Shown piece after piece: positions 361 to 15,606 of a stretch of 64,000 nucleotides of DNA (positions are counted from its first letter, which is position 1; every line of letters begins with the position of its first letter). The notes beneath the pieces were generated by a model. It had not been told where the DNA came from. It worked only from the letters and a program-made list of their open reading frames with translations, and ran no database searches. The DNA lies in the NCBI GenBank assembly GCA_035934015.1, contig DASYYH010000023.1, forward strand, positions 62,001-126,000, given 5' to 3'. The position numbers and the translations under genes were made by a program. The stretch comes from Candidatus Acidiferrales bacterium. GTDB taxonomy: Bacteria; Acidobacteriota; Terriglobia; Acidiferrales; UBA7541.

Positions 361-1215
361 TCACACAACATCAGCGATAGTGCCTTCCATTTTCTGAAAA
401 TAGAAAAGCCCGGTTGCCAGGACAGCGAGCATGATGACGACCGAGATGATCAGCAAACGGCCCGGAGGGTCGCCGTGGCCGGTCAGCGACCAGCGAAAGC
501 CTTCGAGTACTCCCGCCATGGGATTCAATCCGTACAGCCAGCGCCATTTCGCCGGAACGATGGAGCTCGCATACGCGACGGGCGAGGCGAAAAGCCAAAG
601 CTGAATGAGAAACGGGACGACATAGCGCACGTCGCGATACATGGCGTTCATTGCTGAAAGCCAGAGGCCCGCGCCGACAGCCATTAGGACGACAAGAAAA
701 AGAAAAACGGGAAACCACAGCAACGGCAGGCCGGGACGAATGCGGTAGTAGGCGAGCAACGGAACTAGGAGCAAACAGCCGATGGCGAAATCGAGCAGGC
801 CGGAAAGCACGACGGAAAGCGGCAACGCCAGGCGCGGAAAGTAAACCTTCGTGATCATGGACTGGTTGAGGACCATGGCGTTCGTGGCGTTCGAGAGACT
901 GTTGGCGAAATACATCCAAGGGAGGAGCGCGGCGTAATAAAAAACGAGAATCGGAAGGCCTTCGGTGGGCATGTGGGCGAGTTTGCCGAAGAACAGCGCG
1001 AAGACGATCATGGCGAGCACGGGCTGCAAAATCGCCCAGGCTGCGCCGATGGCCGTCTGTTTGTAGCGGATTTTGATTTCGCGCCAGATGAAAAAGTAGA
1101 CCAATTCGCGGAACTGCCAGAGTTCACGGAAATCCACTTCCCACCAGCCGTGCGGCGGAGCGATGTGCAGAACAGGAGGTTCGGCGGCGATGACGTTGGT
1201 ATGCGCGGCGGTCAT
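361..1215 (-). CDS. Polysaccharide ABC exporter permease (Wzm/ABC-2 type)
   Basis: A 284-residue integral membrane protein with about six hydrophobic segments and the ABC-2 permease pattern: a cytoplasmic N-terminus with a WREIKIRYKQT segment around residue 45, and a YRDVRYVVPF loop near residue 195. This is the layout of Wzm, KpsM and TagG permeases, which move O-antigen, capsule or teichoic-type glycans across the inner membrane. Its partner ATPase follows 17 nt downstream. The start overlaps the stop of the upstream membrane-protein gene by 4 nt, indicating translational coupling. The exported glycan cannot be inferred. Confidence 0.9.
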   Translation of the reverse strand: MTAAHTNVIAAEPPVLHIAPPHGWWEVDFRELWQFRELVYFFIWREIKIRYKQTAIGAAWAILQPVLAMIVFALFFGKLAHMPTEGLPILVFYYAALLPWMYFANSLSNATNAMVLNQSMITKVYFPRLALPLSVVLSGLLDFAIGCLLLVPLLAYYRIRPGLPLLWFPVFLFLVVLMAVGAGLWLSAMNAMYRDVRYVVPFLIQLWLFASPVAYASSIVPAKWRWLYGLNPMAGVLEGFRWSLTGHGDPPGRLLIISVVIMLAVLATGLFYFQKMEGTIADVV

Positions 1216-2711
1216 GGCCTGTCTTTTTTCGGCGCGGGATTTGTGGACGGAGCTTCAGTGGGAGATTCGCCGAGCTGACGCAAATCTTTTTTCTCGATCT
1301 CCTGCATCAGAGCGTGGCGGTGCGTGAAGTAGCGCTCAAGCGAGCGCGAGAGATCTTCCGGTACGGCGTGAAATTGATTGGACGCCATCGCGCTCCAGGA
1401 GATTGGGCCACGGTCGGGGATCAAATGCATGCCCCATTGGAACAGAAGTCCGAGATTCCAGGCAATCAATAATGCCACGAGCGCAGCGGCGCTGGAAATA
1501 GCGGCGCGACCGTTGTTCAAAACCTTTTCCCACGCCGAAAGAAGTGCAGCGAGACCGAGGACAAAAATTGGCGTGAGCGAAACAAAAAAGCGATTGCCGA
1601 AGGAGGAAATGCCGTCCCAGTCGGGATAGGTGGCGATCAGAAAATAAAAAGCGAGCGAGGAGAGAAGCAGCGCCGCGCCAAGCTGGTGATCGCGCCGCAG
1701 CAAGAAAAATATGCCGATGGAGGCGAGCAGGAGGATCGGCGTCCAACTGAAAATGCCGTGATCGGAGGAGAACAAGACCTGCCCGAAAAGCGGATGGGCG
1801 AGGCTCCAAACGTGCACTTCGGTGTAACCCATGTCGAAAGGGCTGCCATAGATGATCCATCGCGTGATGAGTGTAGGGAGAAACGCAATGAGCAGCGCGA
1901 CGCTGAAAACGAAGCCTCGCGAGATAAGCGATGCCAGGTTCGCCAGGCGCTCGGGAGAATTTTTAGGCAGTATGCTTGCTGCAGTTCCCGCCATTTCCGC
2001 GACTACGACGAGAAGAAACATCGCATTCGGATAATACATATCGAGCATGAGGCCGGCGATGAGGCCGAGTAAAATCCACTGGCGCAGAGAGCGAGTTCCG
2101 CGCGTGCGATCCCAATACCAGAGAAACAAAGCGACCACGAAGGCGGAATGCGCATGCGACCACGACGGATTGAAGTACATGTAGACAATCAGTGAGCTGG
2201 CGAACCAGATGCCGAGCGTCGCGAGAAACGCGCAACGTTCGGAGAAATATTTGCGCGCGAGGCGAAACGAAATGAAAAGCGCCAGAAATCCAGCCAAAGC
2301 GGTGACAATCGCCATCGTGCCGACATACGGCCAGGAAAAACCGTCGGCGGGGATGCCAGCGCCGAGACGATGGGCGATTGACACCGCAAAATGAGTGACG
2401 GCAAGGAACGGTATCCAGATGAGCGCCGGACCAATTGAGAAATGATTATCGACGTAACCAGTGCGCGTGAGTTGGTCGGCGCGCAATTTGCCCGTGGCAT
2501 CGACGCGGCCGGAGGAAAAGCTGGGGTTGGCGTGAAGCCAATCCTGTTCGAATTGTAGGTTGTGATTAACGACAAGCGCACGCGCGTAGGCGTAGTAACC
2601 AACGCCATCGCCGCGCACCCAGGGATTCACGAGCGGAAGAGAGAACGCGAAAATCAAGATCAGAATCTTTTCGTAGCGGCTTAACTTCGATGGAGAAAAC
2701 AGGGATGTCAT
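1212..2711 (-). CDS. Polytopic membrane protein, glycosyltransferase-39/PMT-like
   Basis: A 499-residue protein with roughly ten or more membrane segments. An early RGDGVGYYAYARAL stretch (about residues 34-47) follows the first membrane helix. This resembles the first periplasmic loop of GT-C fold enzymes of the ArnT/PMT type, which transfer a sugar from a polyprenyl-phosphate donor. I see the topology and the acidic residue in that loop, but no decisive family motif, so the glycosyltransferase role is inferred. Both ends overlap neighbours by 4 nt (methyltransferase upstream, ABC permease downstream), placing it firmly in the polysaccharide operon. Confidence 0.6.
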   Translation of the reverse strand: MTSLFSPSKLSRYEKILILIFAFSLPLVNPWVRGDGVGYYAYARALVVNHNLQFEQDWLHANPSFSSGRVDATGKLRADQLTRTGYVDNHFSIGPALIWIPFLAVTHFAVSIAHRLGAGIPADGFSWPYVGTMAIVTALAGFLALFISFRLARKYFSERCAFLATLGIWFASSLIVYMYFNPSWSHAHSAFVVALFLWYWDRTRGTRSLRQWILLGLIAGLMLDMYYPNAMFLLVVVAEMAGTAASILPKNSPERLANLASLISRGFVFSVALLIAFLPTLITRWIIYGSPFDMGYTEVHVWSLAHPLFGQVLFSSDHGIFSWTPILLLASIGIFFLLRRDHQLGAALLLSSLAFYFLIATYPDWDGISSFGNRFFVSLTPIFVLGLAALLSAWEKVLNNGRAAISSAAALVALLIAWNLGLLFQWGMHLIPDRGPISWSAMASNQFHAVPEDLSRSLERYFTHRHALMQEIEKKDLRQLGESPTEAPSTNPAPKKDRP

Positions 2712-3442
2712 TTCCGCGCGACCGCCACCAGACTTTGACCGAGAGGCGGCTCCAGAATCCGTTCGAGCGGGAAGCTCCAGGGAATGACCCAGCGGTCGTA
2801 CCAGCGTACCTGCGCGGGATTCAGCGTCCGCTGGCGGAAAATCTTTCCCGCGAAAAACCAGGAGGCGACGCCCAGCGCGTTGGCGTATCGAAGCCGCACC
2901 AGCTCGAAGCCAGCGTCTTCGATTTTCGCGCGCAACGCCTGTCTACTGTAACGACGAAAGTGGTCGAACGCCTTGTCGAGCGAGCCAAAGTTCCATTCGA
3001 GCGCGGGAACAAAGAGAAGGAGATGGCCGCCGGGCGAGAGCGATTGATGAATTTCCGAAAGCAGGCCGGCGTCGTCACCAATGTGCTCGAGGACATTGAC
3101 CATGACGATGGAGTCGGGTGCTTTCTCGAGATGCGACGGATTGAAAGAGCCCAGGTGCAACTGCACGCGCGCATCGGCGAGAAACTGGCGCTCGAGCGCA
3201 GGGAAAAGATTGGCCGCTGCTTCAAAGAGGATCATTTCGCGAACGGCCGGCGCGCCGAGCAGCAATCGAGAAAACGTTCCCGTACCGGCGCCGATTTCGA
3301 CCACGCGTGTGCCAAGATGCGGCTGGAAAAACTGGAAAATCCAGCGGCAATAATTGCGCGCCTCGGCCATGGCGTCGAGTTCCGTTCCAGTGTAAACGAA
3401 GGAAGTGCTTACCGGCGTCGGCGGCGCTTGTGCTTCGGGCAT
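2708..3442 (-). CDS. Class I SAM-dependent methyltransferase
   Basis: A 244-residue soluble protein with a Rossmann methyltransferase core. Motif I is VVEIGAGTGTFSRLL near residue 47, an acidic residue follows strand 2 (LFEAA), and the motif II-like SIVMVNVLEHIGDD lies near residue 112. It probably methylates a sugar or lipid-linked glycan intermediate, because it sits inside the polysaccharide operon and overlaps the next gene by 4 nt. The substrate cannot be read from sequence. It lies 87 nt downstream of the epimerase gene, a gap in which I see no further gene. Confidence 0.8.
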   Translation of the reverse strand: MPEAQAPPTPVSTSFVYTGTELDAMAEARNYCRWIFQFFQPHLGTRVVEIGAGTGTFSRLLLGAPAVREMILFEAAANLFPALERQFLADARVQLHLGSFNPSHLEKAPDSIVMVNVLEHIGDDAGLLSEIHQSLSPGGHLLLFVPALEWNFGSLDKAFDHFRRYSRQALRAKIEDAGFELVRLRYANALGVASWFFAGKIFRQRTLNPAQVRWYDRWVIPWSFPLERILEPPLGQSLVAVARK

Positions 3443-3529
3443 GGGTTATTCAACAGCAACCAAGGGAGCAGGACGTTTCGCGACAGATGAATTTCGCGGG
3501 TTCACAATCCAGTTCATAGCGCGAAGGCG

Positions 3530-4573
3530 TCAGCGTGCCTCTTGCGCACGAGCTTGCACTGTGGCCACCGGTTCTTCCAGCGAATCGCCATTTGATGCCG
3601 CCGATTTTTCTTTCTCGCGGAAGTGAGCGATAACGCGGTCGACAATCGTGTTGAGCGGCGTGCGAGGACGGAAGCCAGTGATGCGTTCCAGTTTTTCGAG
3701 AGATGGGACGCGCCGCAGCATGTCTTCGAAACCGGGCTCATAGGCTTCGTCGTAGGGCGTATGCGTGATGGCCGAGGAGCTGTGCGTGCGCTGCTTTACG
3801 ACGCGCGCGAGGCCTTCAATGGTCACTTCCTCGTCCGTACCGACATTGATCACTTCGCCGACGGCCTTGCCGCTGTCGACCAGCCGAACGATGGACTGCA
3901 CGGAGTCCTGCACGTCGCAGAAGCAGCGCGATTGCTGGCCGGTGCCAAAAATCGTGATGGGCGCATTTTCGAGCGCCTGCGAAACGAAGTTGGGAAGCAC
4001 CATGCCGTAGCGGCCGGTCTGGCGCGGGCCGACGGTGTTGAAAAAACGAACGACGACGATGGGAAGCTGTTTTTCTTTCCAGTACGAAAGGGCCAGAAAT
4101 TCGTCGAGAGCCTTGGAAGCCGCATAGCTCCAGCGGCCTTTGGTGGTGGGGCCGAGAACCAGATCGGAATCCTCGCGGAATGGAACTTCCTTGCTCTTGC
4201 CATAGACTTCCGAAGTCGAGGCGACAAGAACGAGCTTCTTTTTCTTGTTGGCGGCATCGAGAACCAGTTGCGTGCCATTGACGTTGGTTTCGATGGTGCG
4301 CACGGGGCTTTCGACAATCAGGCGCACGCCGACGGCCGCAGCCAGGTGGAACACGACGTCGGATTCATCCACCATTTCGGCGAGAAGATGGCGATTCTGC
4401 AGCGAATCGAAGGCATAGTGAAATTTTTCCGAGGCTTTCAGGTGGCGAATGTTTTCCACGCTGCCGGTGGAAAGATCGTCGAGGATAAACACGTCATCTC
4501 CCCGAGCGATCAGCGCCTCCGCAAGGTGTGAGCCTATAAATCCTGCGCCGCCTGTGATCAGTGCGCGCATCAA
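3530..4573 (-). CDS. NAD-dependent nucleotide-sugar epimerase/dehydratase (extended SDR)
   Basis: A 347-residue extended short-chain dehydrogenase/reductase. It has the N-terminal NAD-binding GGAGFIGSH motif at residues 8-16, a catalytic STSEVYG serine/threonine segment, the YAASK catalytic Tyr-Lys pair, and the family RFFNTVGPRQTGRYGMVLP motif. Relatives interconvert or decarboxylate UDP-activated sugars such as UDP-glucose or UDP-glucuronate, so this enzyme probably supplies an activated sugar for the surrounding exopolysaccharide locus. It is encoded 15 nt downstream of the BY-kinase gene. The exact reaction (4-epimerase versus decarboxylase) is not decidable here. Confidence 0.88.
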   Translation of the reverse strand: MMRALITGGAGFIGSHLAEALIARGDDVFILDDLSTGSVENIRHLKASEKFHYAFDSLQNRHLLAEMVDESDVVFHLAAAVGVRLIVESPVRTIETNVNGTQLVLDAANKKKKLVLVASTSEVYGKSKEVPFREDSDLVLGPTTKGRWSYAASKALDEFLALSYWKEKQLPIVVVRFFNTVGPRQTGRYGMVLPNFVSQALENAPITIFGTGQQSRCFCDVQDSVQSIVRLVDSGKAVGEVINVGTDEEVTIEGLARVVKQRTHSSSAITHTPYDEAYEPGFEDMLRRVPSLEKLERITGFRPRTPLNTIVDRVIAHFREKEKSAASNGDSLEEPVATVQARAQEAR

Positions 4574-4588
4574 GACCTCCGTTCCGGG

Positions 4589-6871
4589 TCAGGAAATTGT
4601 GCCGGCTGGGGGAGAAACTTTTGCGTCATCCGGTTCGTCCCCGTGGCCATACGCGTCAGGATAATATCTGTAGGAGTAGTAATAATCCGGCTCTCCTGAA
4701 TCCACTCTGTTCAAAATGACACCTAGGATGCGTCCCTTCACCGAGGAGAGAAGCTCCCGCGTGCGCGTCAGCGCCTCCTTCGGTGTGGAACGGCTGCGGA
4801 CCACAAGCAGCACGCCATCGGCCAAGGCGGATGTAATCACCGCATCCGTCGCGGCCAAAATCGGCGGCGAATCAATCACAATAAACTTATAAATATGGCG
4901 AAGATCTTCGATGGCGTCGCCCATGCGGTGCGATGAAAGGAGATCCGCCGGGTTGGGCGGGACGGGACCTGTGGGAATGGCATCGAGATTCGCTACCGTC
5001 GGATGGGGAACAATGATGTCACGCAGCGGAGAGACACCGGCCAAGTATGAGCTTAACCCGATCACGTTTCCGCGCCCATTGAGCAAATCCAGTGCGGAGT
5101 GAACTCCCGGCTTGCGGAGGTCGCAATCCGCCAGCAGAGTGCGATCGCCCAGTTGCGCAAGAGTGACGGCGAGATTCGCGGCTGCGGTCGTCTTGCCTTC
5201 CTGCGGCAATGCGCTGGTTACCAAGATGACCTGAGGAGGATGCTCGGCCTGGGAAAGCAGGAGGGATGTTCGCAATCCGCGGAAGGCCTCCGAAACCATG
5301 GATTTCGGTTGCTGCATGGAAATGAATTCCACACGCGAATCCGAGACATTGCTCAAGGCCCCAGCGGAACGCGAAATGCCAGCCAAAGCGCGGCGCGCGC
5401 TTCCGTTGGTCAGCGCAGGTACCACGGCAAGCGAAGGAAGTCCCGTGAGGATTTGAACATCGTCCGGAGACTTGACGGTATTGTCGAGATATTCGCGGAG
5501 GAATGCCAGCCCGCAGCCGCCGACGAGTCCTACGAGGAGAGACAGAAGAATATTGCGCGCCTTTTGCGGCTGCGCAGGCGTGGAGGGCACAAGCGCCGGA
5601 TCCACGACGCGGATATTGCTCGAACGGAGCCCGGCGGAGATACCTGCTTCCTTCAGCTTCTGAAGCAAGCCATCGTAAAGCTCCTTATTCGTGTCGGCGT
5701 CGCGCTTCAGCAGATTGTATTGCACGAGCTTCTGCGCCATGTTGTCAGCGAGAGCTTCCTGGTGGTTCAAGTCGCGTTCAAGCAAAACTTCGCGCGCCTG
5801 CGTCTCGGCATATTCGTCGTCGATCTGATGAATGATGGCCTGCTTGGCCGTTGCCAATTGCTTGTTCAAGTTGTCTTCTTGGGCTTTGAGAATCTGGACT
5901 TTAGGATAATTCGGGCCAAATTGACTCAGGGCTTGCGCGTACTGGACATCGACCACAGATTTCTGTTTCACGAGATCCTGCACGACCGGGCTCGTCAGAA
6001 CAGCGGGCAATGAATCCGCGTTGGGTGAATGCGCTAATTCATAGCTCGCCTCTTTTAGAGCGAGTTCCGTTTGCGCCTCTGTCAGCGCGTGGCTTAGATC
6101 TGCGAGCTTTTGAGTGGTGGTGTTTTGATTGGCGTCGACCATCCAGATCTGGTTGTCGCGCTCGTAATTGACTTCTGCATTTTCGGAACTTTCCATTTTC
6201 TGGCGCAAATCTTCGAGCTCGGAAGAAAGGAAGTCGGAAGCCTGCATCGTCGAATCGTAGCGGCTCTTGAAATTTTCTTCCTTGTAGGTCTGGAGATGCG
6301 TGTTCACGACCAGGGCCGCGAGCTGTGGATCCTCGGCGGCAAACTGCACTTCAATCAAGCGGCTATTGGGGACGCGCTTCACCGAAAGACGGCTCAGAAA
6401 TTGCCCGAGGATAGCAGGCACTTGCTGATTGGGACCGATATTCGCCAATTCGGCCGGATTCCCGCCGAATTCCGGATAGCGCGCCAAATCCATCGCACGA
6501 ATGGTCTTCATCGCCAGCGTTTCGCTCTGAAGAATTTTCGTCTGCGTTTCGATGTAGGTATCGAGATCGATATACATGTCGTAGGAATCGGCGTTCTGGA
6601 AGGGCAGCGGATTTTCGACTTCGCGATCCACTTCCACACGCGCCGAAGCCAAGTACACAGGCTTCATTTTGAAGGAAGCGATCGTGACGATAGTGACCAC
6701 GGTCAGGAGAAACGTCAGAATCATCCACTGGTGCTTGCGAAGGATCAGGAAATAATCGAGCAGATTCGGGTCGCGCGGTCCCTGTTCCCAGGAAACTGGC
6801 CCAGCCGGAGAAACCACGGCGAGGGAATCTCTTCGCCGCTCCATCGGTGTCAGTTTCGACGCTTCTTCCAC
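4589..6871 (-). CDS. Wzz/BY-kinase: polysaccharide co-polymerase with tyrosine autokinase domain
   Basis: A 760-residue fusion of a Wzz chain-length domain (first membrane helix around residues 50-70, long periplasmic coiled coil, second helix around 440-460) with a cytoplasmic bacterial tyrosine kinase. The kinase has Walker A (SALPQEGKTT), Walker A' (LLADCDLRKPG) and a VIDSPP segment. The C-terminus has a tyrosine cluster (DYYYSYRYYPDAYGHG), the autophosphorylation tail known for Wzc. Such proteins cycle phosphorylation and oligomerisation to drive and measure exopolysaccharide assembly. It is flanked by the Wza-like export gene and the epimerase gene in the same operon. Confidence 0.93.
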   Translation of the reverse strand: MEEASKLTPMERRRDSLAVVSPAGPVSWEQGPRDPNLLDYFLILRKHQWMILTFLLTVVTIVTIASFKMKPVYLASARVEVDREVENPLPFQNADSYDMYIDLDTYIETQTKILQSETLAMKTIRAMDLARYPEFGGNPAELANIGPNQQVPAILGQFLSRLSVKRVPNSRLIEVQFAAEDPQLAALVVNTHLQTYKEENFKSRYDSTMQASDFLSSELEDLRQKMESSENAEVNYERDNQIWMVDANQNTTTQKLADLSHALTEAQTELALKEASYELAHSPNADSLPAVLTSPVVQDLVKQKSVVDVQYAQALSQFGPNYPKVQILKAQEDNLNKQLATAKQAIIHQIDDEYAETQAREVLLERDLNHQEALADNMAQKLVQYNLLKRDADTNKELYDGLLQKLKEAGISAGLRSSNIRVVDPALVPSTPAQPQKARNILLSLLVGLVGGCGLAFLREYLDNTVKSPDDVQILTGLPSLAVVPALTNGSARRALAGISRSAGALSNVSDSRVEFISMQQPKSMVSEAFRGLRTSLLLSQAEHPPQVILVTSALPQEGKTTAAANLAVTLAQLGDRTLLADCDLRKPGVHSALDLLNGRGNVIGLSSYLAGVSPLRDIIVPHPTVANLDAIPTGPVPPNPADLLSSHRMGDAIEDLRHIYKFIVIDSPPILAATDAVITSALADGVLLVVRSRSTPKEALTRTRELLSSVKGRILGVILNRVDSGEPDYYYSYRYYPDAYGHGDEPDDAKVSPPAGTIS

Positions 6872-6900
6872 GCGCTCGAAAATCCTTTCGCTTCGCTCTG

Positions 6901-7956
6901 CTATTGCGAACCGCGCAAAATAATCAGTCCCGATGTGATTCCCACGGCTGCATCGCCAGCTTTGTACAACGCCCGTTTCGCGGTGCTATCGGGAACGTAC
7001 AGCACGTCATTGGCATGCAGAAGAATATCCGGAGCCTTGCGGTTCATAATCATTTTCAACTTCACGTTAATCTGATTTGTTTTGCCCGTTGCGGGATCTT
7101 TGCGAAGGATAACCGCAGAATTTGTTTTCGCAGTACCCAGCAAGCCGTGAGCCAGGGCAATGACCTTCATCGTGTTGATGGCCTCGCCCGCATAACTCAG
7201 TGTGTAGCCGCCGGGAGTGACCACCGCGCCTGCGACATACACGATGCCGGCGCGCGGCACGGTGATGACGTCGCCCCCATAGACTGGAATGTTGAATGAC
7301 GGATCGCCGTTTTGCAGGAGATCGGAAACGCGGATGGTGATCGTTTGCGATCCTTCCGCGGGATCAGAAGGCGGATCCGGTTCTCCGCACGCCGTTGCCG
7401 GAGGTTTAGGCCGCGTGATGATGATCGAGTTTCCGGCATCGTCGGAAATGCCATCGGCATTGGCCAGAACTTCGAGAAGCGTCGTGGGGCGGTACTCATG
7501 AAAGACCATTGGATGGCGCACCGCACCGACCACCGAAATCGGCTCGCTATTCTGCTCCTTCACCATTATTGAAACCTGCGGATGCATGACCAGGCCATTC
7601 ACCTGAAGAAGCTTTTCAAGCCTGCTTTCCAACTGGAATGGCGTACAACCCGCGACCGAAATCCGGTCCGGGATCAAGGGCATGGAAATGAGGCCGGTCT
7701 CGCCGACGCGGACGTCGCGGGTGAGGTCGGGAACATCAAATACGTCAATATGCAAGACATCTCCGGCTCCAATGGGAATCTCTCCCGTCGAGGAACCCGA
7801 AGCCTGCGCCAGTTGTACGATCCGCGCGTTAGTCTGCTGCGGGGTTTGAGGATTTGCCTGAGCAAAGGCTAATTGGACACTCAGAAATACGGAGACAATC
7901 AACCAAAACGACCGCGGACTGGCGCAGTCCAGAGCTTTCCGGACTGTTGCTAGCAT
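6901..7956 (-). CDS. Polysaccharide export outer-membrane protein (Wza-like, SLBB)
   Basis: The mature protein starts with the polysaccharide-export domain (IGAGDVLHIDVFDVPDLTRDV), followed by SLBB-type repeats (one around VVGAVRHPM, another around VYVAGAVVTPGGY). Wza-family proteins form the outer-membrane channel for exopolysaccharide. I chose ATG 7956 because it gives a clear signal peptide ending near LAFAQANPQ. The frame stays open to a TTG at 8007, which would add 17 unhelpful residues. No lipobox cysteine is obvious, unlike canonical Wza. Its BY-kinase partner follows 29 nt downstream. Confidence 0.88.
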   Translation of the reverse strand: MLATVRKALDCASPRSFWLIVSVFLSVQLAFAQANPQTPQQTNARIVQLAQASGSSTGEIPIGAGDVLHIDVFDVPDLTRDVRVGETGLISMPLIPDRISVAGCTPFQLESRLEKLLQVNGLVMHPQVSIMVKEQNSEPISVVGAVRHPMVFHEYRPTTLLEVLANADGISDDAGNSIIITRPKPPATACGEPDPPSDPAEGSQTITIRVSDLLQNGDPSFNIPVYGGDVITVPRAGIVYVAGAVVTPGGYTLSYAGEAINTMKVIALAHGLLGTAKTNSAVILRKDPATGKTNQINVKLKMIMNRKAPDILLHANDVLYVPDSTAKRALYKAGDAAVGITSGLIILRGSQ

Positions 7957-8031
7957 TGAACGGTATGACCCCGCAAAAACTATGGACTGCTCATACCGGA
8001 AAGTCAATGAAGTATGTGATTTAGATACCGG

Positions 8032-9270
8032 CTAGGACTGCGGAGCTGGCTTCCTCCGGGGTAGGGCCGGGGATACGGCGATGGCGGTCAGCAGCAGGAA
8101 CACGAAGCCATTGGCCGGAATATGAAGATTAAAATCAATAATACTGTGAATTATCATACCCGCACAACCCGTGCACGCTGCCGCATGAATGGCCAGAGAA
8201 AACGAACTCTTGTCGGTCAAAAAACTCTTTCTTGCTTCTTGAAAAAAGATCAGGAAGAAGGCCAGGCCGCACAGGCCGCCGGCGACGCCGGTTTCGGCAA
8301 GCAGTTCGGCATAGTCGTCATGCGCGTGGTCTACGATTCGGCCGTCGTAATAGGTCTCGTACCGGGGATAGACGTCTACTAACGTTCCCAAACCAGTTCC
8401 CAAGATGGGATGGTCCAGGAAAATGCGCCATGTGCCTCGAAGCATCGTGATTCGCCGGTCAGCGGAGAGATCCGAAAGACTGGGAGAGGAGAAGCGATCG
8501 AGGACTTTGCTGACCCCGATCCAGCCGAGCAGAACAATGGCGGCCAGCAGAATCGAAGCCAGGATCGGCGCTTGAAGCTTTTGCACATTGCGCAGCCGCA
8601 TCAGAAGAATCAGTAGAACCACTTCAAAGGCGAAACTCGTGATGCCTCCGCGCGAACCCGTCAGGACAAGAGCGGCGATGGGCACCACGGTGAGAATTCC
8701 GGCGAACGGCAACTGCTCGCGGCGCACCCCCTGAAACAACATAACCGACAGGCCAAAGGGGGCCAGCATCTCCATCAAGCCCGCAAAATCATTGCGGTTG
8801 ACGTATGGACCGAAGGGGCTCCCGCCGCCGGTTAATGGGCGAACCCAATAGAGGACGTCGTGCGAAGTAAAATTCTGCACGATCCCAAAGACCGAAATTG
8901 CGAATGCAAAACCCATCAGAAACCAGGTCAAAGCGCGCAAATCGCGCCGGCCGCGAAACGCCTGGCAGGAGAGGAAAAACAAAACAAAGCAGGCGGCTAT
9001 CTTCAGCAGCGCGACGCGCGTTAGGAACGAGTAAGCCGTCAGGCCGAATGACAGTTGAACAACAACAAGGCCAAGAAACGCTATAAGAGGCCAGAAGATT
9101 ATGTTCCAGTGGATTTCCAGGTCGCGATGGCGAAAGATCAGGACAGCCCACCAGAGCGACAGAAACGCGGCGCCCACTTCCAGCAGAGTCTCGGACCAGA
9201 CTTCCACGGCGCCGAACGCCAGGACGCCGAACGCGAGAAGGACGATGATCCCGAGGCGCAATGTCTTCAT
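8032..9270 (-). CDS. O-antigen ligase / Wzy-like membrane protein
   Basis: A 412-residue polytopic protein with about eleven hydrophobic segments and a large periplasmic loop. The loop carries the Wzy_C signature GTGLGTLVDVYPRYE followed by HAHDDYAELLAETGVAGG near residue 315. This His-Asp-Tyr pattern is shared by WaaL ligases and Wzy polymerases, which join or polymerise lipid-linked glycans on the periplasmic face. Its start overlaps the stop of the TPR gene by 4 nt, and the Wza-like gene follows closely, so it belongs to the same assembly system. Ligase and polymerase cannot be separated from sequence alone. Confidence 0.85.
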   Translation of the reverse strand: MKTLRLGIIVLLAFGVLAFGAVEVWSETLLEVGAAFLSLWWAVLIFRHRDLEIHWNIIFWPLIAFLGLVVVQLSFGLTAYSFLTRVALLKIAACFVLFFLSCQAFRGRRDLRALTWFLMGFAFAISVFGIVQNFTSHDVLYWVRPLTGGGSPFGPYVNRNDFAGLMEMLAPFGLSVMLFQGVRREQLPFAGILTVVPIAALVLTGSRGGITSFAFEVVLLILLMRLRNVQKLQAPILASILLAAIVLLGWIGVSKVLDRFSSPSLSDLSADRRITMLRGTWRIFLDHPILGTGLGTLVDVYPRYETYYDGRIVDHAHDDYAELLAETGVAGGLCGLAFFLIFFQEARKSFLTDKSSFSLAIHAAACTGCAGMIIHSIIDFNLHIPANGFVFLLLTAIAVSPALPRRKPAPQS

Positions 9271-10568
9271 GGTCGAGAATTATCTGCTGCAGCGGCCCGA
9301 GGAACCAAGGTTACGTCGTCGATCCAGACTGTGCCGCCGAGCTTGTTATCGAAACGCTTGCTGGGGAATCGCCGCAAGCGAATCCAGAGAAATTTTGTGT
9401 CGGGACCGGTCAAGATGTTCGCTTGTACGGGGGTCCAGGGATTTGTGCCCGTCAAACTTGGAGTTAGAACGTTCACTTCCTTGTGTTGTTGATCGAGGAT
9501 TTCGAAGCCGATTCCGCTCTCCGTGGAAATGGCCTCAGTGCGCAGGAAGGCTTGAAACACATAGGGCGAGCTGGGCTGAACAGGAACAAATTCCTGAACA
9601 TTATAGAAATCCAGATTCATGCCCCCACTGAAGTCCACACGAAGGGAGTGCGTGCCGGAATGAGCCGTTCCGGCATCCACGCTGATGTACGCTCCCGGCG
9701 TTTGTTGAATGCGCCAGCCGAGCCCGCCATCGGCAATCGGAGACTCAAAGCCGCCATTCCATACGAGCGAACCGTCTTCTGGAGGTGTGGAGTCCCAACC
9801 GGCTGCGGAAAGAACCTGGCGCCAAACACGGCGAATATCGGCGGTGTCTCCTTGAGCGATCAGAGAGTCGAGAAAAGGGAAGGATCGCTTCAGGTCCAAA
9901 GGATGCTGGCGCGGAAGAGCAATGATACGGTCCCATGCAATCATGGCCGCGCTAGTGTCTCGATTTGCGGAAAAGAAATCCAGCGCCTGAAAGAACGCCG
10001 CCGGATCGGGCGGGAGAATATCCGTGAGAATCACATTCGCATCGTGGTCAAAGGTCCACATCTGCGAAATGGCCAGGGGCGTCAATTTTGGATCGGTCGC
10101 GATGGCGGCGTGAATTTGGCGCAGCCCTTCCGTTGTTTGTCCTTGGCGCACAAGGAAGTTCCCGTATTTCCAGGCGACATCGGCGGAAATGGGGTAATCC
10201 CTCTGAGCGGCTTCGTACGCGGATGATGCCTCCGCCGCGTTTCCAATCGCCTCGTAAGCATTTGCGAGGTTCAGCCAATTGTCGGCGGAACGCGGGTCAT
10301 CCGCCACGGCTTTGCGATAGTAAGAAACGGCGAGACTCGGATTGGGCGCATCGAAATTCCACTGCACGGCCTGGCCCAGACGATCCCAGGCTTCGGCGTC
10401 ACCGGGCAAGAGGTTTGCGCCACGAAGCTGTTCGGAAACATCGTTCGAACATCCCCAATACCACGCCAGGCAAAGCTTCCCGGCTTGAAAGATCGTCGCC
10501 AGAGAAAATAGGCCGGCCAGACAAAGGATCGCCAAACGCGATCGTAAACCTGCGGATAAAGAAGTCAC
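9267..10568 (-). CDS. TPR protein with C-terminal carbohydrate-binding-like jelly roll
   Basis: A 433-residue protein with an N-terminal membrane anchor or signal (residues 10-33). TPR-like helices cover about 60-180 (WLNLANAYEAIGNAAEASSAYEAA is a typical repeat). The C-terminal domain (about 270-425) begins LVWNGGFESP and ends GTVWIDDVTL, a pattern common in carbohydrate-binding jelly rolls. It probably acts in the envelope as a scaffold or glycan-binding partner for polysaccharide assembly. It overlaps the ligase gene by 4 nt and follows the lasso kinase gene by 46 nt, physically linking the lasso cassette to the polysaccharide genes. Confidence 0.7.
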   Translation of the reverse strand: MTSLSAGLRSRLAILCLAGLFSLATIFQAGKLCLAWYWGCSNDVSEQLRGANLLPGDAEAWDRLGQAVQWNFDAPNPSLAVSYYRKAVADDPRSADNWLNLANAYEAIGNAAEASSAYEAAQRDYPISADVAWKYGNFLVRQGQTTEGLRQIHAAIATDPKLTPLAISQMWTFDHDANVILTDILPPDPAAFFQALDFFSANRDTSAAMIAWDRIIALPRQHPLDLKRSFPFLDSLIAQGDTADIRRVWRQVLSAAGWDSTPPEDGSLVWNGGFESPIADGGLGWRIQQTPGAYISVDAGTAHSGTHSLRVDFSGGMNLDFYNVQEFVPVQPSSPYVFQAFLRTEAISTESGIGFEILDQQHKEVNVLTPSLTGTNPWTPVQANILTGPDTKFLWIRLRRFPSKRFDNKLGGTVWIDDVTLVPRAAAADNSRP

Positions 10569-10614: not shown

Positions 10615-11655
10615 TCAGCGGGGCGAAGTGGTTGCGACGAAATCCTCGGTCACGGCCTGATAGAGGCGAGGCAACAGCGATGGGTTCTCCGCTGGAATCA
10701 GGCGGCGAACCGGCAGTGCGGCTACGAGGCGCCCCAGAAAACGGAATTCCTGTGCGCGCATGTTTGCATCGAGAAGTTTATTGCCGTACGTATTGGCGAC
10801 GAGCGCGACGAGAGCGTCCTGCGGACTGAGTGGTTCGATTCTCGGCGCATCCGCCGCGGAGGATCGTTGGGCAAGCAGATAAATGGCGCGCAGCGGCAGA
10901 GCTTCGCGCTGAAATGCGGAATCGCGGCCGTCCAGGCGAATTTGACGCTTGTCCGCATCGCGCGGAACAGCCCCGGCAGCGCCGACGGGGCCGTGAAGCA
11001 TCGCGACCGATTCTGGCCAGAGATTGAGGTAGGGATAAGCTGGGGAAACAATGAATTCGCCGGCGCGCTCGGACAGCGCAACAATGTCGTCAGTCAAAAT
11101 GGCGTGGCCTTTTTGCGCGAACAGAGCCGCCGTCGTGGATTTGCCAGCGCCCTCACAACCGACAAAAGCAATCGCCGAATCGCCGATTCTGGCCGCGCTT
11201 GCGTGAAGGCACGACACGCCGCGAAGCCGCAGAACAATGCCGAGGACCGGACCTACGAAAAATAAAGCCGCCTCGTCAAACGAAATGGTCTTTGGACAAT
11301 GGATGGAGATGTTTCGGGCGGCGGCGTCCACGAGGAAACTAGGGCCGTCGCAATAGCGGATTCGATAGCTACCGTCTCGCTGCCTTTTCCAGATCTTCAG
11401 AGCGGGATTGCCGCTGGCATCCAGAATGTCCGTCACATACCAGAGAGACTCGTCTCCGGAATTGTCTTCATCCGCGAACGCATCTTCGACGAAGGAGTGC
11501 ACGAAAATATCCGCCGGGCGCATGGAATCCTGATTGCAGGGAACGAGACCGGGAATGCGGCGGTCGCACTCCAAACGGAGACCGTAAAGTTCATAGGAGA
11601 TTTGCTTGATCGAATTTATTCCGGAAGGACTGGGTTTGATAGGCTGCGAAGCCAC
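10615..11655 (-). CDS. HPr-kinase-like protein, probable lasso peptide kinase
   Basis: A 346-residue protein whose C-terminal half matches the HprK catalytic fold. It has a P-loop FVGCEGAGKSTTAA near residue 163 followed by ILTDDIVALSE, the HprK motif region with a metal-binding acidic pair. The N-terminal ~140 residues lack an obvious HPr-kinase N-domain. Kinases of this type occur in some lasso clusters (for example that of paeninodin), where they phosphorylate the C-terminal serine of the precursor. The ATG lies only 6 nt after the precursor stop, so the two are tightly coupled. The substrate is uncertain because the predicted core has no serine (see findings). Confidence 0.75.
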   Translation of the reverse strand: MASQPIKPSPSGINSIKQISYELYGLRLECDRRIPGLVPCNQDSMRPADIFVHSFVEDAFADEDNSGDESLWYVTDILDASGNPALKIWKRQRDGSYRIRYCDGPSFLVDAAARNISIHCPKTISFDEAALFFVGPVLGIVLRLRGVSCLHASAARIGDSAIAFVGCEGAGKSTTAALFAQKGHAILTDDIVALSERAGEFIVSPAYPYLNLWPESVAMLHGPVGAAGAVPRDADKRQIRLDGRDSAFQREALPLRAIYLLAQRSSAADAPRIEPLSPQDALVALVANTYGNKLLDANMRAQEFRFLGRLVAALPVRRLIPAENPSLLPRLYQAVTEDFVATTSPR

Positions 11656-11661
11656 GCGGCC

Positions 11662-11811
11662 TCACACACGAGTGCGGATCTTACGGAAAGCGCCGCCATC
11701 TTTCTGGCCGTGGTGGCCAACCGCGCGCGTCAGATCGCGAACAGTGCCATAAACTTTCAAGGCTGGGGAAGCGTACTTTTTCTTCGCCGCTTTATCTTTC
11801 TTTTTCCGCAT
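11662..11811 (-). CDS. Lasso peptide precursor (A protein)
   Basis: A 49-residue basic peptide starting at ATG 11811. The leader (residues 1-29) contains Tyr13, Pro16, Leu18, Gly22 and Thr28. These spell the canonical lasso motif YxxPxLxxxGxxxxxTx with exact spacing (Y-17, P-14, L-12, G-8, T-2). Cleavage after Arg29 gives the core AVGHHGQKDGGAFRKIRTRV. Ala1 could close a nine-residue macrolactam on Asp9, the only acidic residue. The C, B2 and B1 genes lie upstream and a kinase gene follows 6 nt downstream. In-frame GTG codons at 11817 and 11826 are alternative starts that do not alter the motif. Mature structure is inferred. Confidence 0.9.
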   Translation of the reverse strand: MRKKKDKAAKKKYASPALKVYGTVRDLTRAVGHHGQKDGGAFRKIRTRV

Positions 11812-11830
11812 ACCCACGATTCTCACGCGA

Positions 11831-11858
11831 ATCTTATACCGAATCGCTTTTTTAGCAA
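11831..11858 (-). promoter_or_regulatory. Candidate sigma-70 promoter before lasso precursor
   Basis: On the minus strand, TTGCTA (11858-11853) and TAAGAT (11836-11831) are separated by 16 nt. They lie in the 176-nt gap between the cyclase gene and the precursor gene. A promoter here would start transcription about 12-15 nt before the precursor ATG. It would let the peptide be made in excess over the modification enzymes. The match is moderate and untested. Confidence 0.3.
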
Positions 11859-11987
11859 ACGAAAGAAGCTGTAATTCTATGGATTGGCGGCCGTTTATTC
11901 CCCGAACGTATCAACGGCATCAAGAATCTACTCTGAAAATTGGGATTCACACCGCGTGCACACTTCGCTCTCGTCGGGAGACCGCTC

Positions 11988-13856
11988 TCAGGAGTAATGC
12001 AGGGCCGTCATGTGCGCTTCCCGGTTCAGACGTTTCACTGACTGGAGCCAATGACTCAAGCTCAAGATGCGAAGCTTCAAATGGATCAGCTCCGGATCAT
12101 CGCTTGCGCGCAGCGCCGGAATTTCGTCAACAGAGACGTACTGGCGCAGCTCCTCTGTGAGTTTTGAAGTCTGTGGCTCTGGCCCGCGCCCGTGTTGCAG
12201 TGCCACGACCGCCGGATCGTTGCGCAAGGGAGTTTTCGGGCGCTTGCGAATTGCTTCCGGCAGGAGGCCGCGCATCGCGCGTCGCAGAAGGTACTTTCGG
12301 AATGACCATGGCATCACCGGTATCGCGAGCAGAAAGTTTACGAGCCGGAGGTCCAGAAACGGATAGCGCACTTCCACTGGCTGGCGCGTCGTTCCCGCGT
12401 CGAAATATTCGAACATGTTTTCCCATTGCGGCAAGAAAAGCGAGGCATAGGCGCGCGGATGAACCGGGTGGGCATTCTCGCGGGAATTCGAGAAGCCATT
12501 CTCCTGGCGATCCACCAGATCCAGCCGCGCCGCCAGATCAGGATGAATCCAGCGAGAAAGGTCGATATTTTCGCGTCTTTTTGAAAACGCGGCGCGGAAT
12601 CTTCGCAGAGGCCCGCGCATGCCATCGGGCGCAACCCATCGCTGAAGAACATGCTCCGATAAATCGAATGCTGCCTGGACCAATTTTCTTTCCTTCCAGA
12701 GACCGCGAAAATGCGCTCCCATTTCGAACGCGAGCAAGTTGTCGCAACCTTCGCCGTAGAGCGCAACATTTACGTTTTGTGCGATCATTCCCATCGAATC
12801 CAGCCATGCAGCGGCAAATGGGTCATCAAGGGGCTCGGGAAACCGCAAGCCTTCTTCCTCCCAGCCATCAAATAATCTCCGGCGATCCACGGTCCACGTA
12901 TGGGTGGGAATCTGCAGAGCCGCCGCCGCGGCGCGAGCGGCGGGCGCATCCGAATCAGGGATACTTTCAAATGTCGCCGTGAAGGCGGAGAGCTGCAGCG
13001 ACGGATATTTTTCCCGCTGCAGCTTGCGTGCCAGCGCAGCAATCGCCGAGGAATCGAGGCCGCCGCTCAAAAAAATTCCCATTTTTTTTGTTGTGAGCCG
13101 GTCCTCAATCGCCAAACTTAAAAGCTCGCGAAAGTTCTCGATGTATTCCTCGCGGCGGTTGTAGCGAATCGCGCCATTCGCCGGGGGACGCCAGTATTCG
13201 CGCAAACGCAAGCCATCGCGAGACCAGCACAGCACATGCGCGCGCGGCAGGCGGCGAATCTCGAGGAACGATGTCGACGCGGCGTCGCGGTTCAGGCCGA
13301 ACAACAGGAAGTCCACGATGGCTGCGTCATTCAATTCGCTTGACACGGCCGGATGCAGGCGAATGCAATTGAGCGTGTTACTGAAAACCAGGCAGCCAGG
13401 CAGCTCGGCGTAATAAAAGGGCTTGATGCCGAAGTGATCTCGCGCGCAAAAAAGCCGCCGTTGCCCGGCATCCCAAATCGCAAACGCAAAATCGCCGAGC
13501 AGACGCTCGACACAGGCTTCGCCCCAGGCCGCGTACGCATGGAGGATTAATTCTGAATTGCCAGAGGAAGAATCGGCCGCGCAGCCACACGACCGAAGAT
13601 CTGAGATCAATTCGCGGCGTGCGTCGATGCGTGCGTCAGCGACAATCCACGTTTTTCCGTCGAGGGTAGCCGGCTGGCGTTCCTGCTTTGCTTCGCTTGT
13701 TGTGCGTAAGAGCGCGCAGCCGAATCCCACGGAGGCGCCGGTCCACATGGTCTGTGCATCTGGCCCGCGAAACGAAAGAAAGCGCGTCATTCGCTCGAGC
13801 AGTGCCGAATCGACCTGCGCTCCGTCGCAGATGGAGATGCCACAAATCCCACTCAT
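11988..13856 (-). CDS. Lasso peptide macrolactam synthetase (C protein, asparagine synthetase-like)
   Basis: A 622-residue AsnB homologue with an N-terminal Ntn glutaminase-like domain (about 1-205) and a C-terminal synthetase domain with the ATP pyrophosphatase loop SGGLDSSAIAAL near residue 270. In lasso biosynthesis this enzyme adenylates the ring-forming Asp/Glu side chain and closes the macrolactam on the new N-terminus. The start reads MSGICGI, so Ser replaces the catalytic Cys directly after Met. Ammonia release from glutamine is therefore unlikely, as expected for a cyclase using the peptide amine. It starts 10 nt after the B2 gene. Ordinary asparagine synthetase is much less likely given neighbours. 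Confidence 0.9.
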   Translation of the reverse strand: MSGICGISICDGAQVDSALLERMTRFLSFRGPDAQTMWTGASVGFGCALLRTTSEAKQERQPATLDGKTWIVADARIDARRELISDLRSCGCAADSSSGNSELILHAYAAWGEACVERLLGDFAFAIWDAGQRRLFCARDHFGIKPFYYAELPGCLVFSNTLNCIRLHPAVSSELNDAAIVDFLLFGLNRDAASTSFLEIRRLPRAHVLCWSRDGLRLREYWRPPANGAIRYNRREEYIENFRELLSLAIEDRLTTKKMGIFLSGGLDSSAIAALARKLQREKYPSLQLSAFTATFESIPDSDAPAARAAAAALQIPTHTWTVDRRRLFDGWEEEGLRFPEPLDDPFAAAWLDSMGMIAQNVNVALYGEGCDNLLAFEMGAHFRGLWKERKLVQAAFDLSEHVLQRWVAPDGMRGPLRRFRAAFSKRRENIDLSRWIHPDLAARLDLVDRQENGFSNSRENAHPVHPRAYASLFLPQWENMFEYFDAGTTRQPVEVRYPFLDLRLVNFLLAIPVMPWSFRKYLLRRAMRGLLPEAIRKRPKTPLRNDPAVVALQHGRGPEPQTSKLTEELRQYVSVDEIPALRASDDPELIHLKLRILSLSHWLQSVKRLNREAHMTALHYS

Positions 13857-13866
13857 GTTTTCTCAC

Positions 13867-14334
13867 TCATTTGCCTTCGAGCATTTCGCGAGTTACCGGG
13901 GCGTCGAAGCGAGCGTAGTGGTCGACGACGTCTTCAGCGTCATTCACCGCCACACCCACAACTTCCACCCACGCGTGCGCCTCGAACGCATCGCCCGCCT
14001 TCTTTCCGCCGACGTGCAGCTCGGCGGCGATTCCTCGGCGATGCAGCAGCCAGCAGAGCGCCAGCGAGCGGGAAAGACAATTTCCTCTCGCGATGCCGTA
14101 GCGAGAAGCGGCTTGGATCATCCGCGCAGAGTTGCGGGCCTCTTGCAAGCAGTACGAGTCGTCCGTCGCGCGTTTATGTTCCGCTTGGCGGTAACGGGTG
14201 AGCGATCTTTGCACGTTCTGAAAATCGCGAATGCGCAGAACGGCGCTGGCCAAAGGAAGCAAGTAAAGAGCGCGGAAAAAGTCGCGTCGTTGCCGGTTGG
14301 AGAGTGTTCGGAACCTGCGCCACGCGCCCATCAT
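13867..14334 (-). CDS. Lasso peptide leader peptidase (B2, transglutaminase-like)
   Basis: A 155-residue protein of the lasso B2 family (transglutaminase-like superfamily), which cleaves the leader peptide by cysteine-protease chemistry. Catalytic candidates are visible: Cys in RGNCLSRSLALCWLLHRRG near residue 93, His in FEAHAWVEV near residue 125, and Asp in the following NDAEDV segment. The length is normal for a stand-alone B2. It begins 27 nt after the B1 gene and ends 10 nt before the cyclase gene, the compact B1-B2-C arrangement seen in split-B lasso clusters. Confidence 0.9.
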   Translation of the reverse strand: MMGAWRRFRTLSNRQRRDFFRALYLLPLASAVLRIRDFQNVQRSLTRYRQAEHKRATDDSYCLQEARNSARMIQAASRYGIARGNCLSRSLALCWLLHRRGIAAELHVGGKKAGDAFEAHAWVEVVGVAVNDAEDVVDHYARFDAPVTREMLEGK

Positions 14335-14361
14335 GCGATTTTTCCTGCTGCATGCAATTCT

Positions 14362-14697
14362 TCAGCGCCCGAGAATGCTCGAGCGCCTCCCGGCAAAAAA
14401 TCGGCGGGATTCGCCGGCGAATTCAACCAATCCTTCGCTCATCAATTGCTGCATCAAATTCAAGATATCGTCTTCGGCTTGCTTTGCGCTCACATCGTAT
14501 TCGCTTGCGATAGCGTCGCGAAGCTCGCTGACGCTCCGCGGCCGTTGCAAAAGGCGCCAAATCGCGGCGCCAACAGGATTCAGGCCGTAGTAGACGCTAT
14601 TTTTCATCCCGAGAATCGCGGCTTCGTCGCCCAGGTCGCACGACACCTGTTCCTTCGTCGCCACAATCACCGCGTCTGGTGTAAGAGCGTTCCTCAT
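14362..14697 (-). CDS. Lasso peptide RRE/PqqD-like leader-binding protein (B1)
   Basis: A 111-residue PqqD-like protein forming a RiPP recognition element. Such domains bind the leader through an edge beta strand, in lasso systems via the conserved Tyr, Pro and Leu of the precursor, and deliver it to B2. Family features include the NSVYYGLNPVGAAIWRLL segment near residues 33-50 and the helical half with SVSELRDAIASEYDV. It lies immediately upstream of B2. The C-terminal tail (about 95-111) is arginine-rich. It is the first lasso gene in the direction of transcription and follows the GT2 gene by 54 nt. Confidence 0.88.
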   Translation of the reverse strand: MRNALTPDAVIVATKEQVSCDLGDEAAILGMKNSVYYGLNPVGAAIWRLLQRPRSVSELRDAIASEYDVSAKQAEDDILNLMQQLMSEGLVEFAGESRRFFAGRRSSILGR

Positions 14698-14751: not shown

Positions 14752-15606
14752 TCAGTCGAAGAACCGGTAACGCAAGATCGCCAACAGCGTGACGACGCCG
14801 TCGCGCCAGGTGATTTTTTTTCCTTCTTCATAGGAGCGGCCAGCATAGGAAATCGGCACCTCGTAGACGCGCCAGCGGCCTCTGGCCACTCGCGCGGTCA
14901 CTTCAGGCTCGAATCCGAAGCGATTCGAGCGCAAATGCATACTCTGAATCACTTCCTTGCGGAAAACTTTGTAACAGGTCTCCATGTCGCTGATTTTGAG
15001 GTTTGTCAGAATGTCGGAAAGCAGCGTCAGAAATTTATTTCCAACGTAATGCCAGAAAAAATGGACGCGCTGAGGGCCGCCGAGAAATCGCGAGCCGTAA
15101 ACAACGTCGGCGCGGCCGTCGAGAATCGGTTCAAGCAGCTTCGGATAATCGCGCGGGTCGTATTCGAGATCGGCATCCTGCACGAGGAGAATATCGCCGG
15201 TAGCTTCCGCAAATCCGCGGCGCAGAGCAGCGCCCTTACCTTGATTCTGTTCCTGAAAGAAAAATCGGAATTCGCCAAGCCGCAGCCGCGCCTTCCCCCC
15301 AAGAATCTCCGCTTGCGTTTCGCCCGCTTGCTGGCGGTGATGCATTTCTGCGAGCCATTCGCGTGTGCCATCGGTCGAGCAATCATCAACCACAAGAATT
15401 TCATGGGTGAGGCCGCCCGCTTGAACTCGGCGTAGAATTTCCTCGATGAAATTGCGTTCATTATATGCGGCGACGACGACGGAAAGCGTCATCGGTCGCG
15501 TCGGTGCAGTCCCTTGACCCTGTGGGAAAGCAGCGCCTTGCGTCCGCGATTGTTCCTGTGCCGCGTGAGAGAGAGGCATCGGGTTCCGAAAGATAAAGAT
15601 TATCAT
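14752..15606 (-). CDS. Glycosyltransferase family 2 (DPM1/polyprenyl-phosphate type)
   Basis: A GT-A fold enzyme. It has the nucleotide-binding SVVVAAYNE start, a [10 protein letters not shown] segment, and the DXD-like [19 protein letters not shown] motif shared with DPM1-like polyprenyl-phosphate sugar synthases, then GSRFLGG. It likely loads a sugar onto a lipid carrier or growing glycan at the inner-membrane face. The first 38 residues look non-conserved. The true start may be the internal ATG at 15492 (beginning MTLSVVV) or the one at 15579. It is the first gene of the minus-strand run and is divergent from the aminotransferase gene. Confidence 0.85.

Follow-up and report, generated by a model that had tools for sequence, protein, structure and literature searches.

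We have analyzed a putative lasso-peptide gene cassette in a 64,000-nucleotide stretch of DNA from a Candidatus Acidiferrales bacterium (contig DASYYH010000023.1, positions 62,001 to 126,000), hereafter called the window. Five open reading frames (ORFs) lie on its minus strand in the order B1, B2, C, A and K, encoding a PqqD-like protein, a transglutaminase-fold peptidase, an AsnB-like synthetase, a 49-residue precursor and an HPr-kinase-like protein (Table 1). From B1 to K they are separated by 27, 10, 176 and 6 nt, the gap of 176 nt lying between C and the precursor. A first-pass annotation of the window had reported these five genes, their strand and their spacing (6-27 nt, with 176 nt before the precursor), and all were found as described. 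Its assignment of the DNA to the Acidobacteriota is supported through the closest relative by sequence, genome G039 (73% identity for K and 84% for the neighboring TPR protein). The five genes very probably represent an intact, evolutionarily conserved, kinase-bearing lasso cassette in a soil acidobacterium, and we assign them with high confidence to the class II type, B1-B2-C-A-K.

Table 1. Features of the lasso cassette and its flanks in the window
Feature	Position	Strand	Evidence
B1, PqqD-like recognition element of a ribosomally synthesized and post-translationally modified peptide (RiPP), 111 aa	14362..14697	-	NF033536, PF05402
B2, transglutaminase-fold leader peptidase, 155 aa	13867..14334	-	NF033537, PF13471, Cys86/His120
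C, AsnB-like macrolactam synthetase, 622 aa	11988..13856	-	NF033535, PF00733, SGGLDS PP-loop
A, putative lasso precursor, 49 aa	11662..11811	-	Leader motif, Asp9, similar ORFs adjoining C in relatives
A leader, 29 aa, YxxPxLxxxGxxxxxTx	11725..11811	-	dN/dS 0.12 vs L002
A core, 20 aa, AVGHHGQKDGGAFRKIRTRV, predicted ring Ala1-Asp9	11665..11724	-	Follows T-2/R-1; relatives also have D/E at core 7-9
Core Thr18 codon, predicted phospho-acceptor	11671..11673	-	Sole S/T/Y of core; tail motif in clade; putative role
K, predicted HprK/PEPCK-fold kinase, 346 aa	10615..11655	-	Conserved His151, Lys172, Ser173, Asp189-Asp190; AlphaFold2 model; Foldseek
GT2 glycosyltransferase, upstream flank of cassette	14752..15606	-	PF00535 116 bits; same place in cassette-free G040 locus
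TPR protein, downstream flank of cassette	9267..10568	-	Pfam TPR; same place in G040
Wzy_C/O-antigen-ligase-like membrane protein	8032..9270	-	PF04932 83.1 bits
Polysaccharide genes: Wza-like, Wzc-like, epimerase, methyltransferase, PMT-like, ABC-2 permease	361..8007	-	Pfam

B2 scores above the cut-offs of both NF033537 (81.9 bits, cut-off 33) and PF13471 (76.4 bits, cut-off 26), and its catalytic residues are retained among 122 aligned B2 proteins, with Cys86 kept in 120 and His120 in 121. The PF05402 cut-off of 23.4 is exceeded by B1 (68.1 bits) and the PF00733 cut-off of 21 by C (134 bits), in whose translation an SGGLDS PP-loop is visible. C begins with MSGI, as do many related C proteins, and therefore lacks the position-2 Cys for a glutaminase. 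The best NCBIfam matches of B1, B2, C and the precursor are all lasso families, although only B2 passes its cut-off. The first-pass annotation had raised the prospect of better scores for B1, B2 and C against non-lasso profiles; in the NCBIfam comparison there were none.

The precursor consists of the leader MRKKKDKAAKKKYASPALKVYGTVRDLTR and the core AVGHHGQKDGGAFRKIRTRV. Tyr, Pro, Leu, Gly and Thr stand at -17, -14, -12, -8 and -2 relative to Ala1, just as first read, and an Asp at core position 9, unmentioned in that reading, is spaced correctly for a nine-residue macrolactam. Translation may begin at ATG 11811 or at GTG 11826, 15 nt upstream, which gives the longest ORF; the homologue in the congeneric locus L002 has an ATG at the matching codon and the same length of 49 aa. 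Compared with L002, the ratio of nonsynonymous to synonymous substitution rates (dN/dS) is 0.12 for the leader and 1.17 for the core, both over few sites, a pattern that would be expected of a recognized leader and a diversifying product. Frame 1 of the reverse complement likewise has a dN/dS of 0.31, and the frame test is weak when taken alone because third positions in that frame coincide with those of the coding frame. The small ORF is supported as a real gene both by purifying selection on the leader and by the recurrence of leader-matching ORFs beside C in relatives. A scan of positions 11600-12100 for sigma-70 promoters and terminators found none. The calculated mass is 2189.20 Da for the linear core, 2171.19 Da for the lasso form (the same value as previously proposed for the cyclized core) and 2251.16 Da for a phosphorylated lasso.

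Related loci were drawn from two sources: the 80 best of at least 578 matches to C, and 90 sites with B2 in the family of the window genome, where B2 is present in 66 of 89 genomes. The sample of 171 loci was reduced to 134 with matches to both C and B2, and to 122 after removal of duplicate C sequences. Among these 122 distinct loci, 94 have a precursor-like ORF (some of these, namely L146, L148, L157 and L169, are likely spurious), 85 have K on the same strand, 78 have the order C-A-K and 72 the complete order B1-B2-C-A-K. A small ORF is thus conserved between C and K in related genomes, a point on which the first-pass annotation had made its reading depend. The position of the precursor after C, previously considered uncommon, is therefore the rule in this clade, and is seen in 78 of the 81 loci having both K and a precursor-like ORF.

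K proved the most informative of the five genes. His151, Lys172 and Ser173 are invariant in an alignment of 34 K sequences, and Asp189-Asp190 is conserved in at least 90%; across 89 K sequences the His is found in 88, the Lys in 88, the first Asp in 74 (Glu in 10) and the second Asp in 83. These residues correspond to the lasso-kinase motif H-G-G-G-K-S-D-D as published (PMC10368454). A profile built from the 34 sequences matches HprK/P in the PDB with an E value of 3e-8. An AlphaFold2 model of K (predicted local distance difference test score 89.8, predicted template modeling score 0.88) had PEPCK as its top Foldseek match (E 6e-9, template modeling (TM) score about 0.5 on the query), and its best match to HprK/P had an E value of 5e-6, with TM scores up to 0.61 on the target and of 0.33 or less on the query. 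The model predicts an HprK/PEPCK-like fold for K.

Thr18, third from the C-terminal end, is the sole hydroxyl residue of the window core, and a tail Thr is also the sole Ser, Thr or Tyr in the core of L043 and in both cores of L037. Core counts were restricted to precursors with Y/W/F at -17, G at -8 and T/I/V at -2. In K loci of the window's clade, [KRH][TS] followed by 0-3 terminal residues occurs in 45 of 52 cores, with Ser or Thr at that place in 50 of 52; when core positions 10 onward were shuffled 2000 times, this tail motif had a mean count of 9.7 and a maximum of 19. The Thr or Ser is followed by 0, 1, 2 and 3 residues in 8, 12, 22 and 3 of the 45 cores, respectively. Pooling of both K groups gave 48 of 90 cores, compared with a shuffle mean of 12.5 and a maximum of 23. 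The motif was found in 3 of 38 cores from more distant K loci (many cyanobacterial, and several ending in Ser) and in 1 of 12 cores from loci without a detected K. The latter core (L146) is probably a spurious ORF, most of the remaining K-less cores end in acidic residues, and one of the nine K-less loci in the count, L073, lies near a contig end, where K may have been cut off. The motif, present at 46 of the 78 tips of a K tree built by a quick method, required 8 changes on that tree, compared with 18 or more in 200 label shuffles. Clusters of this K-bearing branch occur in records labelled Acidobacteriota, Cyanobacteriota, Pseudomonadota, Myxococcota and Rokuibacteriota. At the level of sequence, these results provide strong evidence that the tail Thr matters, and we somewhat favor Thr18 as the target of K.

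By analogy with known families, B1 would bind the YxxPxL leader, B2 would cleave after Arg(-1), and C would activate Asp9 with ATP and join it to the amino group of Ala1. K is predicted to phosphorylate the linear precursor on the conserved tail Thr (core Thr18). The product would have a nine-residue ring and a basic tail of 11 residues, presumably threaded as in known lasso peptides.

The exopolysaccharide setting proposed at first pass is borne out by Pfam matches to polysaccharide-type genes flanking the cassette. GT2 and DegT genes lie on one side, and TPR, Wzy_C, Wza-like, Wzc-like, epimerase, methyltransferase, PMT-like and ABC-2 permease genes on the other; a Wzt-like ATPase and GT4 glycosyltransferases continue past the window edge (in L202). 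The cassette stands beside the same genes in four of the five genomes of the genus. K, TPR and Wzy keep the same order in G000 (the window genome, 98.6% complete, with one B2 found), G037, G038 and G039. The GT2 side is visible in G000, G037 and G039 (in the last on a second contig, a contig break falling within B2); the G038 contig starts too late to include it. The fifth genome, G040, has the same gene order without the cassette: QueE-QueC-TPR2-PilZ-DegT-GT2 is followed by TPR-Wzy-Wza-Wzc-epimerase-methyltransferase, and a GT2-TPR gap of 181 nt takes the place where the window holds five genes. In G040, a genome of 91% completeness, neither B2 nor K was detected. Since all five genes are absent at this syntenic site, K appears to belong to the unit that comes and goes; the five genes would thus be gained or lost together, the empty site being known from one assembly, G040.

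A wider association of kinase-type loci with polysaccharide genes was considered and found to be unsupported. At least one polysaccharide-type ORF is present in 8 of 27 K loci and 3 of 26 K-less loci of the family with at least 9 kb of sequence (Fisher p 0.18); in named genomes the counts are 24 of 52 and 3 of 5 (p 0.66). Of the 19 family loci sequenced far enough, 5 have both TPR and Wzy downstream of K. A link to polysaccharide genes does exist in this genus but is no general feature of kinase-type loci.

Upstream of B1, genomes G037 and G038 have a divergent ABC-2 pair, D1/D2. Such a D1/D2 pair was not found beside the window cassette, which in this respect departs from the common, though not universal, presence of an ATP-binding cassette (ABC) exporter. 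Cassettes without D1 are confined within the genus to the window genome and G039. D2-type ATPases occur so commonly in each of the five genomes that they carry little information; the best in G000 scores 146 bits with 36% identity. A scan for ABC signatures (22 of 122 loci) had suggested that acidobacterial loci have no exporter; this was rejected, as a homology search found ABC-2 pairs that the scan had missed, with D1 in 22 loci. Of 66 K loci whose flank is long enough, 15 have the ABC-2 pair beside B1, a count in which L006, L126 and L142 were scored as lacking it though they have both genes. In L003, divergent ABC-2 permease and ATPase genes occupy positions 5309-6936 upstream of B1.

Taken together, we tentatively propose, at slightly less than even confidence, that the products of a branch of K-bearing clusters are lasso peptides with a phosphate on a tail Thr preceded by a basic residue, and that in the window's genus this module comes and goes as one cassette at a fixed surface-polysaccharide site. 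A number of observations weigh against the reading of the window genes as a lasso cassette in which K acts on Thr18. B1 and C fall below the curated cut-offs of their best NCBIfam matches, the lasso PqqD chaperone NF033536 (65.6 bits, cut-off 80) and the lasso model NF033535 (348 bits, cut-off 525). The precursor narrowly misses both NF033528, 'lasso_cyano', its best model (28.3 bits, curated cut-off 33), and NF033521 (18.9 bits, cut-off 19), and K is below the cut-offs of both HprK-related models, TIGR04352 (31.6 bits, cut-off 200) and PF07475 (21.9 bits, cut-off 33.3). The presumed third B2 residue, Asp132, is poorly kept (Asp in 52 of 122 aligned proteins). No orthologue of the D1 exporter permease was found in G000 (best 25 bits) or G039 (none). 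In the published account of acidobacterial lasso clusters, no product was detected from three in Escherichia coli or from one in Burkholderia (PMC9064862). As for the tail, 7 of the 52 cores in the window's clade lack the motif, the sequences counted are related and hence not independent, and the limit of the clade (a C score of 285 bits, with L043 and L052 added by hand) was set after inspection of the data. The association of K with the tail is also confounded with ancestry because most K-less precursors form a separate clade with Ile/Val(-2) leaders. For these reasons, namely the post hoc limit, the relatedness and the different clade of most K-less loci, the evidence that K acts on the tail Thr is circumstantial.

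These points leave room for other explanations. One accepts the lasso cassette and has K acting on another target, such as a residue of the leader or a cellular protein, while the basic-Thr tail is kept for the cyclase, for export or for a target. It draws on the known lasso kinases, which are described as modifying the last Ser or Ser3 (PMC9266682, PMC10368454), whereas Thr18 is third from the end, and on the more distant K loci, which mostly lack the tail motif despite having K. We consider it unlikely: the window, L043 and L037 cores contain no hydroxyl residue other than the tail Thr, the motif tracks the K tree, and the number of residues between the motif and the C-terminus ranges from 0 to 3, a poor fit to a fixed steric role. 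That the cassette is a decaying or silent remnant, its exporter lost in this lineage and the whole of it lost in a sister species, is improbable. The absence of D1 from G000 and G039 despite its presence in G037 and G038, and the failure to find B2 or K in G040, are in keeping with decay, as is an identity between G000 and G039 of 73% for C and K compared with 84-98% for TPR, Wzy, Wza, Wzc and the epimerase. Diversifying selection on the product, however, would also account for faster divergence, and B1 (81%) differs little from the flanking TPR2 (82%) and PilZ (84%). In addition, all five reading frames are open, B2 and K retain the catalytic residues that were checked, and purifying selection acts on the leader. 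It is very improbable that the same enzyme types yield an unthreaded or otherwise modified RiPP, a view to which the shortfall of C against its curated lasso cut-off lends some weight; the spacing of the leader, Asp9, the presence of B1 and B2 as separate proteins and the lack of Cys2 in C all agree with lasso systems, and lasso models are the best NCBIfam matches of B1, B2, C and A.

Turning from these alternatives to the proposed tail-phosphorylated lasso peptide, clusters of related type have been reported. The suggestion that the peptide might be undescribed holds for its sequence and fails for its type, as acidobacterial clusters, including biosynthetic gene clusters (BGC) 44.1 and 40.1, were described from soil metagenomes by Negri et al. 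2022 (PMC9064862). BGC 44.1 has the order D1-D2-B1-B2-C-A, with a 150-bp precursor after C as in the window, and differs in having the ABC pair D1/D2, which the window lacks; in BGC 40.1 a DegT aminotransferase gene adjoins B1, the window DegT being one gene further off. In the table rows examined for these two clusters no kinase appears, a hypothetical gene of 975 bp adjoins C in BGC 40.1, and neither cluster gave a detected product (PMC9064862). Metanodin, another soil-metagenome lasso peptide, was assigned to Gammaproteobacteria (PMC12670498).

Kinase-bearing lasso clusters are themselves already known, and what is new here is a plausible, predicted phospho-Thr site in the tail. PadeK, ThcoK, SyanK and PsmK are reported to act on the C-terminal Ser of the precursor (PMC9266682, PMC8498205). 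These paeninodin-type systems resemble the window in having an HprK-like kinase gene within the lasso cluster, and differ in the modified C-terminal Ser, whereas in the window a Thr preceded by a basic residue is the predicted acceptor. BsfK, from the bsf cluster of Bradymonas sediminis, is an HprK-related kinase whose H-G-G-G-K-S-D-D residues are matched in K; it is described as modifying Ser3, accepting S3T and being sped by B1 (PMC10368454). The bsf precursor has an Ile(-2) leader and a Ser3 site, whereas the window has Thr(-2) and a Gly at core position 3. An acceptor Ser of the PadeK/ThcoK/BsfK type, at the core C-terminus or at core position 3, is thus absent from the window core. In Paenibacillus, the pba/lpp system likewise has lasso and HprK genes inside a capsular polysaccharide locus; it belongs to the Bacillota and has an additional signal-peptidase RiPP (lpp) beside the lasso cluster (PMC13381572). 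The roles of paeninodin-type lasso peptides are stated as unknown by the authors of that work (PMC13381572). In the open-licence literature, judged mostly by titles and the openings of abstracts, no lasso phosphothreonine or C-terminal-Thr site was found.

The conserved acceptor motif across several phyla offers a direct test of a new kinase specificity and of a requirement for phosphorylation to come first. Such a requirement might explain the lack of product from an acidobacterial cluster that was cloned with A, B1, B2, C and D (PMC9064862). The genus also supplies a natural series in one locus, comprising a cassette with exporter, a cassette without exporter and no cassette.

Several further features were observed around the window cassette and in related clusters. 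The window encodes an 892-aa ORF at 16857-19535 on the minus strand with a weak PilZ domain (23.1 bits, cut-off 22.5); it is syntenic in the genus and fast evolving, with 42% identity to G040 and 44% to G037. The K-less loci of the same family L160, L162, L168, L171, L185, L186 and L190 have Ile/Val(-2) leaders, such as were noted earlier in Acidobacteriaceae (PMC10368454), and acidic ends (ELDD, YEADE and similar), with several precursor copies in three of the seven. The mean tail charge is -2.75 over 12 K-less cores and +1.5 in the window's clade. Between C and K, the loci L003, L037, L051, L065, L119 and L134 contain two or three precursors whose cores differ. The related clusters L030, L032, L117 and L187 have precursors after C whose cores carry Asp8, for an eight-residue ring, and two Cys each, without the basic-Thr tail, which suggests that their products may be disulfide-bearing lasso peptides.

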